IMG/VR virus record: IMGVR_UViG_3300038701_001730
Coordinates: 1-25,633 of that record
Source of the DNA: a virus
Strand: one strand, 5' to 3'
DNA length: 25,633 bases
In this document: piece by piece, positions 543 to 9,423 of the stretch
Layout of the letters: every line of letters starts with the position of its first letter
How positions within the stretch are numbered: the first letter of the stretch is position 1
Position numbers and translations under genes: made by a program
Notes under the pieces: model-generated
Seen by the model: only the letters and a program-made list of their open reading frames with translations
Told to the model about the DNA's origin: nothing
Databases searched by the model: none

Positions 543-565
543 TTCACCGATGGTGAGGGTTAATT
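543..565 (-). promoter_or_regulatory. Phage RNA polymerase promoter P1 (T3-like)
   Basis: On the minus strand, AATTAACCCTCAC (565-553) is identical to positions -17 to -5 of the bacteriophage T3 promoter, followed by CATC and a predicted start GGTGA with +1 at 548. It stands just after the RNA polymerase gene and would drive the genes at 517-1 and whatever follows. Between it and the polymerase stop is a perfect 10-bp palindrome, CCACATGTGG (585-594), of unknown role. The sequence recurs at 3366 (minus) and 9401 (plus). Confidence 0.85.
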
Positions 566-599
566 GTATGCAAGGTCTGTAATCCCACATGTGGAACTA

Positions 600-3080
600 T
601 TATGCGAAGGTGTATTGCGCTTCGCGGATGCGGTTCAGATCTAGCGTCCCAGACTTAGGAGGCTCGGGTAGTTGCTCTGCCAGTTCTTCGCCGACCTGCT
701 CTTTGAGCTGCTCGTAGAAGTCCCGGAGAACGTCGCCTTCATATTGCTCCACCAAAGTGTCGCGAAGGATCGCACTGATCCGTGAAGTGTCCGCCGCGTG
801 AGCGCCGAAGCTGTCATGGATCATGGCGAGGTGGTTGATGCCTTCCCGGCGCGACCGAAGAGCAACGCCTTGAAGGTGGGCCGCATCGAGCGAGTGTACA
901 AAGTTCGGAGCAACGCCGTTCGTTTGAGCGCGGCTGTCGATCTTCTCTTCGTCGACTTGGATGACCACCTGTAGGCGGCTCCCGGCCCAGTGCGTGTCGA
1001 TGCGCTTTCCTTTCTGCTTCTTGTATTCCTGCAGGATCGGAAGACCCATCGGAGTAGTCCACCAGAGGGGCAGCGAGGCTTTGGCCGCGACAGTGGCGAC
1101 CTCCCGGAGCCAGTCCATCGCCGACGCAGCCGACGTGACGGTCTCGCGGATCGCCTCGTAGAGGACATAAGACAACCATGTGGAAGCTTGGTAGTTATCC
1201 ACGCCGCCAAGATATGGCGCCTTGCCTTCCCCTTCGAGATCTCGGTCGAGCTCCCGCAGTGTCTGGAGGATCATTCCCTGCATCCCGAAACGCGTAGCGC
1301 TGTAGCAGTATGTCATGGTCGGTCGCTTAGCGATCTTCCGGCCAATCCTGCCGTTCTGCCACGGGTTTGGGATCGTGATTGGAACTCCGTCCACGTCATC
1401 GTATGTGATCGTAGGCGTTTGATCTGCCTTAGCCTGAGCCTTAGCCGCCACCGCCATGTAGACGTCGGCAGGGACATCGGTCGGCAGGAGGTTGACCGTG
1501 CGCCCGCCTTCCTCGTCCCGGAGCATTGCTGAGAAGTGCTGCAGGCCTGAGCAGGAGCCATCCAGAGCCACTGGGATACGCGAAACGTACTCTGTCGGGT
1601 CTTCGAGAGACAGTGCTTCGAAGATCTCAATGCAAGCAGCAAGAGCACACCAAGGGTCGTCGGCCTGCGTCCAGAAGCGGTCCCCGTCGAGCGGATTTCG
1701 TCCGCTGTCCATGATGGCTTCGAGGTTGTCCAGAACCCACGCCTTGCGGTCTGCGAACGAGACCTTGTCGACGCCAAATAGGTTGGCCACGTGGACTTGC
1801 AGCCAGTCGAACCCTTGGAGACCGAGGGGCTTGCCGTCGGCGAAGTGAATGAGCGCCTTCTGCCAGTCGCTGCCTTGAGGTGACGGGCCAAATACTGGGA
1901 CAGGGTACACCCGTCCACGGAAGTCGAGCTCGTGCGGGAAGAAGATACGCTCTTCCTCTTCGAACCGGCGGGCAACCCAAAGACCCTGCATGAGGCAGAT
2001 GCGGCTGCTCGTCCGCTCGCCGTTCCGAGCGTAGGTCAGCGCGGCCTCCTTCTTCCACGCCAACTTGGCTTCCTCATTCGTCTCGATGTCGACAGGCTTG
2101 GGCGGCACTGGGTCGTCTTCTCGTTGAGGGAGACCTCCCAGAGTTCCGCCCCCTGTCCAGACCTCCTGCATGATCGACAGGACGTCCCGGTTGATCCTCC
2201 ACGGAGTGTCTTGGATGTGGTTCACCGCTGCATAGCAGTTGTCGATGTCCACTCCGCGAAGCTCTTCGTGGTACGCCTTGTTCCGCTGCTTGACGAACAG
2301 GTTTCCGGGGCGACGGAGCAGGTACCCACCATAGGTAGGAGACCTCCAGCGGCGCGGACGGATCAGCATCGGGAGATTGATCGGCTCCAGCAGAGAGCAC
2401 CGCTCGTGTTGGTTATCGAGCCACACTTCGAGAGCCTCCGAAGGGGCGAGACGATACGTGTAGCCGCGCTTGTGCTTCTGCGCGTCCCTCGTGAACAGTC
2501 CGGTCGCTTCCATGACCAGTTCCATCATCTTGAGGCCAACAGTGGTCTTGTGGCTCTCCGACAGTTCCCGGCGGACACCTTCCGCCTCGAATAGTTTCTG
2601 GACTGCTGAGCGACGCTGGCGTGAGTACCCGCGCTTCTCTTGCTTGACCATGTAGCCCTTGTACCCGGACTTGTTGTGTTCCCGGAACGCCTTGAACTCC
2701 AAGTTCTCCGACAGAGCGTTCGTGATCGCGATAGCGACCGTCTGGAATGCAGAGCGGGATATGGCCATGTTCGTCATGACACGGACGGTGAGATATGCGG
2801 CCTCGTCAGGGTCCGTTAGGAGTAGGAAGTCGAGCACGTTGTGGCGGCGACCAGCCTTCCCGTCACATCCTGCCTTGATCGCTCCGCGGATGGCGTTCGC
2901 GACGGGCTCCACACAGGTCTTGATAAGCAGCTGGCCGGGCGGAAGATTGGCTTCCTCGTCGACCGTCCCTGCCTCGACCCGCCAAGGGAGTTTGCGTGAG
3001 TGGTAGCGTTCAACGCCGAGCGCTTTGCTCTCTTCTTCGAGTTCTACCTGCCGGCGGATGAGTGTACGAATATCTTGCAT
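600..3080 (-). CDS. T7-family single-subunit DNA-directed RNA polymerase
   Basis: This 826-aa enzyme (T7 gp1 is 883 aa) transcribes phage genes from phage-specific promoters. The catalytic set is complete: Asp507 in ALDGSCSGLQHFSAMLRD (T7 D537), Lys585 and Tyr593 in KRPTMTYCY (T7 K631, Y639), and Asp756 in MIHDSFG (T7 D812). The C-terminus ends in FA as in T7. The specificity loop (about 681-704) keeps Arg693, Arg702 and Gln704 (T7 R746, R756, Q758) but has Asp695 where T7 has Asn748, the T3-type residue; this fits the T3-like promoters in the window. The loop is one residue shorter than in T7. The ATG at 3080 has an AAGGA Shine-Dalgarno held in a small hairpin. The gene lies downstream of promoter P2 and the integrase. 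Confidence 0.97.
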   Translation of the reverse strand: MQDIRTLIRRQVELEEESKALGVERYHSRKLPWRVEAGTVDEEANLPPGQLLIKTCVEPVANAIRGAIKAGCDGKAGRRHNVLDFLLLTDPDEAAYLTVRVMTNMAISRSAFQTVAIAITNALSENLEFKAFREHNKSGYKGYMVKQEKRGYSRQRRSAVQKLFEAEGVRRELSESHKTTVGLKMMELVMEATGLFTRDAQKHKRGYTYRLAPSEALEVWLDNQHERCSLLEPINLPMLIRPRRWRSPTYGGYLLRRPGNLFVKQRNKAYHEELRGVDIDNCYAAVNHIQDTPWRINRDVLSIMQEVWTGGGTLGGLPQREDDPVPPKPVDIETNEEAKLAWKKEAALTYARNGERTSSRICLMQGLWVARRFEEEERIFFPHELDFRGRVYPVPVFGPSPQGSDWQKALIHFADGKPLGLQGFDWLQVHVANLFGVDKVSFADRKAWVLDNLEAIMDSGRNPLDGDRFWTQADDPWCALAACIEIFEALSLEDPTEYVSRIPVALDGSCSGLQHFSAMLRDEEGGRTVNLLPTDVPADVYMAVAAKAQAKADQTPTITYDDVDGVPITIPNPWQNGRIGRKIAKRPTMTYCYSATRFGMQGMILQTLRELDRDLEGEGKAPYLGGVDNYQASTWLSYVLYEAIRETVTSAASAMDWLREVATVAAKASLPLWWTTPMGLPILQEYKKQKGKRIDTHWAGSRLQVVIQVDEEKIDSRAQTNGVAPNFVHSLDAAHLQGVALRSRREGINHLAMIHDSFGAHAADTSRISAILRDTLVEQYEGDVLRDFYEQLKEQVGEELAEQLPEPPKSGTLDLNRIREAQYTFA

Positions 3081-3163: not shown

Positions 3164-3304
3164 TTAGAAACAGCGTGGAAGGGACCGGCAGTAGTCCGTC
3201 CAAAGATGCCTCTCGGCTTCTATGATACGGTGTATTCTCGCGATGCGCGCCTCTCGGTCGAGCGCATCCACCGGCCTCTCTGGGTCGTGCTTTCCAGTGA
3301 ACAT
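3164..3304 (-). CDS. Small hypothetical protein in RNA polymerase leader (46 aa)
   Basis: ATG 3304 is preceded by AAGGAG at 6-nt spacing and lies 45 nt downstream of the predicted start of phage promoter P2. The 46-aa product begins MFTGKHDPERPVDALDREAR and is strongly charged, with a probable amphipathic helix (ALDREARIARIHRIIEAERH). No family is recognised. The frame is open further upstream, to 3379, but that would begin before the P2 start site, so I chose the ATG with the Shine-Dalgarno. Because it is read before the polymerase on the P2 transcript, a regulatory role is conceivable but not shown. Confidence 0.5.
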   Translation of the reverse strand: MFTGKHDPERPVDALDREARIARIHRIIEAERHLWTDYCRSLPRCF

Positions 3305-3343: not shown

Positions 3344-3366
3344 CCCACCGAGGGTGAGGGTTAATT
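3344..3366 (-). promoter_or_regulatory. Phage RNA polymerase promoter P2 (T3-like), upstream of the polymerase gene
   Basis: AATTAACCCTCAC (3366-3354, minus strand) is identical to T3 promoter -17 to -5, followed by CCTC and a start GGTGG with +1 at 3349. It reads into the 46-aa ORF and then the RNA polymerase gene, so the polymerase should drive its own synthesis in a positive loop. The promoter sits on the polymerase side of the proposed attP core and would remain linked to the gene in a prophage. Confidence 0.88.
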
Positions 3367-3379
3367 GCTCGACTGGCAC

Positions 3380-3456
3380 GTTCTCAACTGTGTGGAGGTA
3401 TCGTGCCTAATCGTGCCAAGAGTAGCATTTTAGGATCGTGCCAGCGGGCACGGTCG
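3380..3456. repeat. Cluster of GGCACG/CGTGCC sites, candidate integrase arm sites
   Basis: Five copies of GGCACG or its complement fall in about 75 bp: TGGCACGTTC (near 3384), two TCGTGCC units spaced 9 nt apart (3403-3418), another at 3436, and GGGCACGG at 3447. The last two face each other as the inverted repeat CGTGCC-AGCG-GGCACG. Repeated short sites beside a phage integrase and next to a possible crossover core are typical of arm-type binding sites. A repressor or RNA polymerase accessory site is an alternative, because the cluster directly abuts promoter P2. Confidence 0.5.
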
Positions 3457-3493
3457 AAAAACGCCTCTGAAGTCACTGAAAGATTATGGATAT

Positions 3494-3508
3494 ACTGGAG
3501 CGGGTGAT
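3494..3508 (-). other. attP: Candidate attP core matching a tRNA-Gly 3' end
   Basis: The minus strand at 3508-3496 reads ATCACCCGCTCCA. As I recall, many bacterial tRNA-Gly genes, including alphaproteobacterial ones, end in CACCCGCTCCA, with CCA encoded. It lies 51 bp beyond the integrase stop and 40-120 bp from a cluster of repeated GGCACG sites. Integrases of this type often use tRNA 3' ends. The match is short (11-13 bp) and upstream bases do not follow the tRNA T-arm closely, so this is a reasoned candidate rather than a demonstrated site. Confidence 0.45.
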
Positions 3509-3556
3509 ACCAACCCCCACCATATTTTCCAATGACTTACTGAGAGTGCGCCGCGC

Positions 3557-4828
3557 CTAGGATGGCACATTATTTCCACATAGTTGAAGTTCTGTTGTGG
3601 AACACTCTGTCGCTTCAGATCCTGCTTTCCCCTGCCTAGTTCCAACCGAGGCGTTAAGGTTCAGGATCGATACCCCACGCCACACGTGGCTGTTCATGAG
3701 GTGTAGGTAATTCTGGGCCGTGATCTTGATGTCCGAGTGCCCGAGCCAGTCGCGCAAGGCAACAATGTCGAGCCCGCCTTCAGCCAGTCGAGTGGCGCAG
3801 GTGTGCCGAAACGTGTGGAGCACAACGTCGTCGAACTGGAAGCCCTTCATCGCCATGTCTGCCCGCACCTTCTTGAGGTGATAGAGCGGGCCTGAGCTGC
3901 CTTTGGCCCAAGGGAACCAGCGGGTGCCTTCGCAGCGCTCGTTAAGTTCCTCAATAGCCTTCATGGCTCGGTCGCTCAGCGGTATGTCGCGCGGCTTGCG
4001 GCTCTTGGTCACAAAGATCTCTGCGCCACGGTAGACGGTGCGCTTAGGGACCGCCAACCAGATGCCTTCGACATGCTCTCCTGTCACCGGGTCGCGCCAG
4101 CGCTTCCGCTTGAGCCAGCTCGGTCCTGCCAACAGTGCCTCGGTCAGACGACAGCCGGTGTCCATCAGGATGATGGCAAGGCGTTCGAAATGCCACCAAG
4201 TGCGGGTAGGCTCGTCCTGCCGTCGCTGCAGTATGCACTCAAACATCGCCGCTTCCTCGTCCAGAGAGACGACGCGGTCCCTTGTGTTGTCGAAAGTGAT
4301 CTTTGGGAAGTCCGGCATGGCCGACAGGTGCCCATCCTTGACCGCTTGGCGGCATGCAGCTGACAGACTGCCGAGCAGCTTGCGTACACTCGCCGGGGCA
4401 TAGTTCTCTTCTTCGAAGAGGCGCTCTGTTAGCTCTGCAACGACGACAGTGGACACTTGCCCGATCTGTAGATCGCTCGGCAGGAGCCGCGTCAGGATGC
4501 GCACGTTGGATCTGTGTGTGGCCTCTGCCCGACAGTCACCCCAGACGTCACGGTGCGATAGGCACGTAGCGAGCCAGCTGGATAGGTAAGGACTGTCGAG
4601 GTTCCTGCTTGTGGAAGCTTTGGTCTCGCGGCCCTTTGGGGCAACGACGCCGCCCATGGCCGGGTGCTTCGGATGCACTCCTGCCATCCAGTCGCGGCGC
4701 TGCGCTTCCGCCTCTGCCTTGTCCTTCGTGCTGAGACCGACACGGCTCCGACGGAGACCGCCAGAGCCATCAGGGACTTCGGTGTCGAGGTAGTAGACAC
4801 CATTCGGTTTCTGTTTGAGGTCAGTCAT
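3557..4828 (-). CDS. int: Tyrosine recombinase, phage integrase
   Basis: This 423-aa protein carries out site-specific integration and excision. The catalytic residues are visible: Arg227 (MDTGCRLTEAL), Lys275 (VTKSRKPRDIP), His338 and Arg341 (HTFRHTCATRL), His364 (LGHSDIKIT) and the nucleophile Tyr374 (QNYLHL). An N-terminal SAM-like DNA-binding region (about 75-165) precedes the catalytic domain. I chose ATG 4828 (MTDLKQKPNGVYYL) because GGAGG stands 7 nt before it and overlaps the stop of the upstream regulator, implying coupled translation; a longer frame up to 4903 would overlap that gene. It is followed by a likely attP and then the RNA polymerase, so the phage is temperate or recently was. 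Confidence 0.95.
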   Translation of the reverse strand: MTDLKQKPNGVYYLDTEVPDGSGGLRRSRVGLSTKDKAEAEAQRRDWMAGVHPKHPAMGGVVAPKGRETKASTSRNLDSPYLSSWLATCLSHRDVWGDCRAEATHRSNVRILTRLLPSDLQIGQVSTVVVAELTERLFEEENYAPASVRKLLGSLSAACRQAVKDGHLSAMPDFPKITFDNTRDRVVSLDEEAAMFECILQRRQDEPTRTWWHFERLAIILMDTGCRLTEALLAGPSWLKRKRWRDPVTGEHVEGIWLAVPKRTVYRGAEIFVTKSRKPRDIPLSDRAMKAIEELNERCEGTRWFPWAKGSSGPLYHLKKVRADMAMKGFQFDDVVLHTFRHTCATRLAEGGLDIVALRDWLGHSDIKITAQNYLHLMNSHVWRGVSILNLNASVGTRQGKAGSEATECSTTELQLCGNNVPS

Positions 4829-4830
4829 GT

Positions 4831-5229
4831 TCAATCCTCCAGTGCTAAGGCCTGCCCGATCTCGTCCGCGACGGACTGACCGAGAGGCGTTAGCTTGATC
4901 CATTTGCGGCGGTTGTCAGACGGGTCTGTCTCACGTCGGAGCCAGCCCAGTCCGTCCTGCCGTTTGCCGTTGCGAATGCGCCCCTCGTTGAGAAACACGC
5001 GGTACGTGGTGTGTAAGCTCCGATTGATCGCTGGTCCTACAGCCTCTTGAAGCTCGGTAAAGGTCGCTGGCTTCCCTGCCCGGTCGGCCATAGCTGCTGC
5101 GAGAAAGAATGACGCCTGCGCCAGCGTCAGGTGCCGTGGTGCGATTTCAGCTAGGGTCACGACCCCGACTGAGAAGTTCCGCAAAGCGGGCGTGTGCGCG
5201 CGCCGCCGTGCCTTCAATGTTTGTGCCAT
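4831..5229 (-). CDS. MarR-like winged-helix protein, coupled to integrase
   Basis: This 132-aa protein has a basic N-terminus and a winged-helix pattern from about residue 33 to 118: RHLTLAQASFFLAAAM, then TFTELQEAVGPAINRSLHTTYRVF as the likely recognition region, and a wing leading to LRRETDPSDNRRKWIKLTPLG. The final stretch (DPSDNRR...LTPLG) is the signature wing of MarR-type regulators. AGGAG lies 7 nt before ATG 5229. The stop TGA is 2 nt from the integrase start, so the two are co-expressed. It may control integration, excision or lysogeny, but its target cannot be read from the sequence. The 138 bp before it (5230-5367) holds no convincing gene or promoter. Confidence 0.75.
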   Translation of the reverse strand: MAQTLKARRRAHTPALRNFSVGVVTLAEIAPRHLTLAQASFFLAAAMADRAGKPATFTELQEAVGPAINRSLHTTYRVFLNEGRIRNGKRQDGLGWLRRETDPSDNRRKWIKLTPLGQSVADEIGQALALED

Positions 5230-8127: not shown

Positions 8128-8130
8128 GTA

Positions 8131-8707: not shown

Positions 8708-8742
8708 GTTTTGTAAGATACGCATGCAGCGCTGATAGTCAA
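8708..8742 (-). promoter_or_regulatory. Sigma70-like early promoter
   Basis: On the minus strand TTGACT (8742-8737) and TATCTT (8720-8715) are separated by 16 bp, with the -35 matching 5 of 6 and the -10 matching 4 of 6 consensus bases. It points to the early genes and lies 80 bp after an intrinsic terminator. Host RNA polymerase would use it to transcribe the early block toward the integrase and, in unintegrated DNA, the phage polymerase. Confidence 0.6.
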
Positions 8743-9186: not shown

Positions 9187-9400
9187 AGGGACGGGAACGG
9201 CTGTTTGCCTAGGGTGCCCGGTCAATCGTGCCGGGTATCGCGCCAGCAACAGGAGGCTCGGAGCATCTGCGCAGCCCTATCGGATGCGTGGGAGGCTGAT
9301 CGAGCCGGGAGTGGCCCTATGGGGGGTACGCGCGCCTGTCTCCTACGTATAACCCACTTCGGATTTTTGCGCTGAAACCTGCGGCTTAGACCCTCAATCC

Positions 9401-9423
9401 AATTAACCCTCACCCTCGGAGGA
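9401..9423 (+). promoter_or_regulatory. Phage RNA polymerase promoter P3, antisense to the late block
   Basis: AATTAACCCTCAC at 9401-9413 on the plus strand is identical to the other two phage promoters, followed by CCTC and GGAGG, +1 at 9418. It points into the 3' end of the large terminase gene, against all genes. Downstream, 9446-9466 repeats the P2 leader (AAGAGTACCT, then A or T, AGGAGCACCTT). No ORF follows that Shine-Dalgarno-like stretch. Possible roles are antisense RNA, transcription-primed replication, or a leftover duplicate of the P2 leader. Confidence 0.8.

Follow-up and report, generated by a model that had tools for sequence, protein, structure and literature searches.

How temperate T7-like phages silence a self-amplifying RNA polymerase in the lysogen is a question unsettled in the published work consulted. 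The locus described here raises it in a particular form, since an earlier note on this DNA proposed a geometric switch. Integration at an attP site between the integrase gene (int) and the gene of the phage RNA polymerase (RNAP) would sever the polymerase from the early promoter, leave it only the polymerase-dependent promoter P2, and by itself help silence the lytic programme. Is it this geometry that keeps the polymerase silent, or a repressor?

The analyzed window is a whole IMG/VR record of 25,633 bases. Its gene content, with a large terminase, a tyrosine integrase, and a T7-type single-subunit RNAP, marks it as part of the genome of a temperate T7-like phage. The minus-strand order is that given in the earlier note: a sigma70-like promoter starting at 8742, small early genes, a MarR-like regulator, int, attP, P2, and RNAP. 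In the explanation that we favor, this part of the window is the lysogeny control region of the phage. Its features are as follows.

547..566, minus strand: second phage-type promoter, downstream of RNAP, assigned by motif
600..3080, minus strand: T7-type single-subunit RNAP (PF00940, E=1e-115; phrog_414)
3164..3304, minus strand: 46-codon leader reading frame between P2 and RNAP, at the place where relatives carry antirepressor genes
3348..3367, minus strand: P2, phage-type promoter CAATTAACCCTCACCCTCGG, a repeated, conserved motif presumably recognized by the phage RNAP
3375..3456, minus strand: operator-like module, defined by an alignment of the window and 11 relatives, with a putative binding protein
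3467..3487, minus strand: RNAP-side inverted-repeat flank of the attP core, assigned from sequence, with a putative role
3496..3508, minus strand: attP core ATCACCCGCTCCA, a tRNA-Gly 3' end by tRNA match, at the attL position of the L062 and L068 prophages
3522..3542, minus strand: int-side inverted-repeat flank of the core, assigned from sequence and likely to bind the integrase
3557..4828, minus strand: tyrosine integrase, int (PF00589, E=2.1e-14; phrog_1)
4831..5229, minus strand: MarR-family regulator, candidate lysogeny repressor (phrog_9665, E=6.5e-8), whose frame overlaps the int start
8715..8742, minus strand: candidate sigma70-like early promoter TTGACT-16-TATCTT, from a sequence scan, conserved in the relative L089
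9225..9244, minus strand: second half-site cluster, shared with L089, L069, and L067, in what is presumed to be the genome-end region

The int gene lies on the same strand as RNAP and ends 476 bases before it, an arrangement that serves to recognize temperate Autographiviridae; for its start, position 4828 is favored over a longer frame beginning at 4903. Among phages with a name, Caulobacter phage S2B and Mycobacterium phage jiawei come nearest, with RNAP identity of 51-52%. Both share with the window the order terminase, early genes, regulator, int, RNAP, whereas the repeats around attP have other sequences and jiawei, unlike the window, has a strong hairpin upstream of RNAP. The recorded host of jiawei (L004, OR464703.1) is Mycolicibacterium; its nearest relatives are alphaproteobacterial phages and prophages, and the host record may merit a check.

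A raw consensus scan for sigma70-like sites yielded one site against 3.0 expected in shuffled sequences, a result without statistical weight. Because the matches were fewer than in shuffles, the scan was rejected as evidence for the early promoter and conservation was used instead. The relative L089 keeps the promoter in context, as TTGACT-16-TATATT followed by the same CAAAACATCGAA as in the window. A repeated leader box, (A/G)TTCCACAT, is present on the minus strand of the window at 8129, 7859, 7047, and 597; at three early genes it runs on as AAACNACANACAACCGAAAGGAA ahead of the start codon. The window contains the P2 motif three times, and the aligned relatives have P2-like sites ahead of RNAP. 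An inverted phage-type promoter is located just past the gene of the large terminase subunit and is directed back into that gene (antisense), at 9400-9419 on the plus strand of the window and, on the minus strand, at 4165 in L089, about 3984 in L069, and about 4510 in L067.

The candidate attP proposed earlier, at 3508-3496, proved to be exactly ATCACCCGCTCCA. It is intergenic, between int and RNAP, and coincides with the attL position of the L062 and L068 prophages, where a tRNA-Gly(CCC) ending in CACCCGCTCCA occupies the place of the window's core. The suggestion that the core might be a tRNA 3' end likewise held: TCACCCGCTCCA, its last 12 bases, is preceded by a tRNA T-arm in 30 of the 41 sampled genomes from the class of Novosphingobium umbonatum. 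The upstream-extended form GGTATCACCCGCTCCA was absent from all 289 sampled genomes of that class, and thus the shared core comprises only 12-13 bases. A tRNA 3' end downstream of int is also the form of attP by which temperate Autographiviridae are recognized. Imperfect inverted repeats flank the core in the window, L064, and L089. Neither an exact nor a relaxed junction pattern for the attL of the window phage itself matched any viral contig, and no attR of this phage was found either. A switch of the type known from mycobacteriophage BPs, with attP inside the regulator gene, was considered and rejected, because the core is intergenic and the regulator gene is at 5229-4831.

The effect of integration on this gene order can be observed directly in relatives. 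A scan based on RNAP alignment yielded 55 genome loci and 80 viral loci. Prophages of the window's relatives are present in sequenced genomes, and in seven close prophage loci a complete host tRNA gene is located just upstream of RNAP in the same direction, int being absent between them. The tRNA is tRNA-Ser in Caulobacter D5 and N. umbonatum, tRNA-Pro in N. lindaniclasticum, tRNA-Gly in L062 and L068, tRNA-Met in L063, and tRNA-Ala in L065. Both junctions were found in three of the seven, and there int adjoins attR at the far end. The attL/attR repeat of the Caulobacter prophage is 19 bp long and lies within one contig, with the attR copy 138 bases past int and about 44.7 kb from the attL copy; the repeats of N. 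umbonatum and N. lindaniclasticum measure 20 and 13 bp, respectively. At the matching empty site in a related Caulobacter, the tRNA-Ser is intact and the homologue of the attR flank comes immediately after it. Meanwhile, int directly precedes RNAP in the window, L064, L066, L067, L069, L070, L073, L089, S2B, and jiawei. Together, these forms and the prophage junctions show that integration puts int and RNAP at opposite ends. Since the core is a tRNA 3' end, RNAP comes to lie just downstream of the host tRNA and co-oriented with it. Thus, integration severs RNAP from the early promoter in the relatives, and by homology the same is predicted for the window phage. On these points the earlier note, which had advised a search for attL and attR in related prophages, foresaw what the three junction pairs and the seven tRNA loci display.

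In a divergent subgroup (L075, L081, and L082), the MarR and int genes are transcribed away from RNAP, and integration would leave int and RNAP together; no att junction was identified in this subgroup, to which L009 and L011 also belong by RNAP.

Terminator calls here are heuristic predictions of the intrinsic type. Two findings named beforehand as adverse to the geometric switch, an att site elsewhere and a strong terminator between int and the polymerase gene in the free form, were both absent from the window, the int-RNAP interval of which contains only weak terminator candidates. Most free relatives in the window's clade are also without a strong terminator in this interval, the exceptions being jiawei and the pair L067/L215, in which a -22 kcal hairpin with a T-run follows int. 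Inside this post-int hairpin (L067 9710-9800, L215 12700-12790), TGGTAGCGGAGG matches a tRNA-Met 3' end read in reverse complement; should this be the core, it would be in inverted orientation and would sit at the terminator. In the wider family, a strong hairpin with a T-run is found in 20 of 35 int-RNAP intervals, compared with 9 of 175 shuffles, so free readthrough is not general there. In the window's clade, transcription may pass from int into RNAP in the free form. Rho-dependent termination could block readthrough in either the free or the integrated state.

In the integrated state, the tRNA-to-RNAP interval of six of the seven prophages contains no strong terminator. At the far end of the N. 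umbonatum prophage, in contrast, the core in attR is followed by a hairpin and T-tract, the host terminator, and in N. lindaniclasticum a hairpin that starts immediately behind attR is truncated where the contig ends. Hence the tRNA's own terminator appears to have been displaced to the far prophage end, and the tRNA unit appears to be directed into RNAP unterminated. In three more distant loci (L087 2543-2680, L013 9327-9470, and L012 9556-9750), a strong terminator stands between tRNA-Leu and RNAP, as though it were brought or retained by the phage to insulate RNAP from tRNA transcription. Many cousins thus seem to insulate RNAP from upstream transcription, whereas the window's clade mostly does not.

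These data bear on the proposal that separation from the early promoter is itself a main cause of lysogenic silence, the loop of RNAP and P2 staying off until excision because P2 needs RNAP. The separation itself is real in the relatives, P2 is the only recognized promoter next to RNAP, and the free window has no strong terminator to stop readthrough. However, the host tRNA unit, with its terminator apparently displaced, replaces the early promoter, so that RNAP expression could on balance rise or fall. In addition, the locus carries both a MarR regulator and a conserved operator-like module, and antirepressors in relatives suggest a repressor that has to be overcome. We therefore regard geometry as an improbable main cause. 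The claim that RNAP loses its early input stands for the relatives; besides P2, it would gain a potential input from the host tRNA unit that takes the place of the early promoter. As stated, the view that integration alone helps silence the lytic programme is not supported. In short, the observation is confirmed, the core coordinates included, and its interpretation as a geometric switch is partly supported.

Another possibility is that the position of attP has no regulatory role, being no more than the usual location of the int-attP cassette in temperate T7-like phages, and that a MarR-controlled host promoter between attP and RNAP drives RNAP. The isolation of RNAP behind a terminator after the tRNA in cousins outside the clade (L087, L012, and L013) would fit such a promoter; one was seen by eye as plausible after the terminator of L087, and the subgroup with MarR and int divergent from RNAP points the same way. 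Nevertheless, a consensus scan of the window, which could miss a weak host promoter, detected no sigma70-like site from the core to RNAP, and most members of the window's clade lack the terminator. A separate host promoter of this kind thus seems rather unlikely.

The alternative source of silence is the operator-like module. It consists of a GTGCC/GGCACGAT palindrome, two tandem GGCACGAT half-sites, and one inverted half-site, sits between the core and P2, and accompanies RNAP whether the phage DNA is free or integrated. A degenerate tandem pattern derived from it had seven matches in 2.9 million viral contigs, all in the window's phage group; four were in already-known relatives, and the three new ones were all between int and RNAP. 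Five of the six half-sites of the window fall into two clusters, the module and positions 9225-9244; none of 2000 trials with random placement reproduced this clustering. Interpreting TGGCACGATACTTCC within the module as a sigma54-like element was considered and not adopted, because the TTGC element is TTCC or similar in relatives.

The regulator encoded next to int is a natural candidate for binding the module. The PDB chains that its profile ranks highest all belong to the MarR family, and its AlphaFold model (pLDDT 83) matches MarR structures. Between P2 and RNAP, L066 encodes a Bro-N protein and L068 a Rha/KilAC antirepressor. Taken together, the module, the MarR gene beside int, and the antirepressors of relatives indicate repressor control, and the arrangement suggests a MarR repressor acting on RNAP. 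Lysogenic silence more likely rests on the operator-like module, probably bound by the MarR-like protein.

The same GGCACGAT module could instead be a set of integrase arm-binding sites with no operator role. It adjoins the core, and its tandem direct half-sites are spaced 10 bp apart, as in known arm sites. On the other hand, the same half-sites cluster at the genome-end region without a core in four phages, and the palindromic pairs fit a dimeric repressor. Arm sites are accordingly a tentative alternative, one to be taken seriously and still held as less than an even chance.

The explanation that we prefer combines an exchange of early and tRNA inputs at integration with MarR repression of RNAP through the module; we assign it a probability of about 0.55 as a whole. 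In the free form, host RNA polymerase would start at the early promoter and transcribe the early genes, MarR, and Int; some transcripts would pass attP into RNAP, and the first RNAP molecules would fire P2 and amplify their own synthesis. Integration, as in the relatives, would proceed by recombination at the tRNA 3' end, so that int would come to lie with the early region at one prophage end and RNAP at the opposite end. In the prophage, RNAP would lose the early input and gain a potential input by readthrough from the tRNA, because the tRNA's own terminator has moved to the far end. Silence would be maintained by the MarR-like protein, probably bound to the GGCACGAT module and blocking both P2 and upstream readthrough. 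Integration removes one RNAP input, so it would at most assist the repressor and is not an off switch on its own. The bolder reading that the input swap is a true regulatory event, with induction depending on host tRNA transcription overcoming a repressor roadblock to reach the self-amplifying polymerase, is speculative, and we think it unlikely. Still, given the apparently unterminated tRNA unit, a leak from tRNA transcription is the more interesting of the earlier note's remarks.

Parts of this scheme have precedents. The int-attP-RNAP order and readthrough into RNAP are already published for temperate T7-like phages. The closest case is LUZ100, a T7-like Pseudomonas phage with temperate features, for which host readthrough past int into RNAP and a MarR repressor were proposed (PMC10134795). 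LUZ100 has a MarR-int operon upstream of RNAP and a phage promoter directly before RNAP (PMC10134795). Correspondingly, the MarR gene of the window (5229-4831) adjoins int upstream of RNAP on the same strand, and a putative phage-type promoter, judged by its motif, stands directly upstream of RNAP. The two differ in that a terminator has been mapped immediately behind int in LUZ100, which uses tRNA-Leu, whereas the window has no strong terminator and a tRNA-Gly core; the sections of the LUZ100 paper at hand contain no discussion of RNAP being separated by integration (PMC10134795).

In the cyanophages S-TIP37 and P-SSP7, integration needs int and attP, and no repressor and no stable lysogens were found (PMC8776855). 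As in the window, their attP is downstream of int and matches the 3' part of a host tRNA, but their target is tRNA-Leu (PMC8776855). The window's relatives, for their part, are stable enough to appear as genomic prophages. Mycobacteriophage BPs shows integration-dependent immunity, in which attP falls inside the repressor gene and integration truncates that gene, altering the encoded repressor (PMC4557955). There too, recombination at attP moves the DNA on one side of the core away and changes the regulatory state (PMC4557955). The window attP, in contrast, is intergenic, and integration changes what precedes the polymerase gene rather than a protein. A targeted search, with incomplete coverage of the literature on temperate T7-like phages, found no published account of an input swap or of integration cutting RNAP off from the early promoter.

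The geometric switch is thus a testable proposition, and an exchange of inputs under repressor control would describe it better than silencing by integration alone. The window's group offers the free and integrated forms of the same control region side by side. Its unusual feature is a host tRNA gene, apparently deprived of its terminator, that lies a few hundred bases upstream of the polymerase gene. With RNAP placed behind the host tRNA in this way, insertion would swap the input of the polymerase instead of plainly switching it off.
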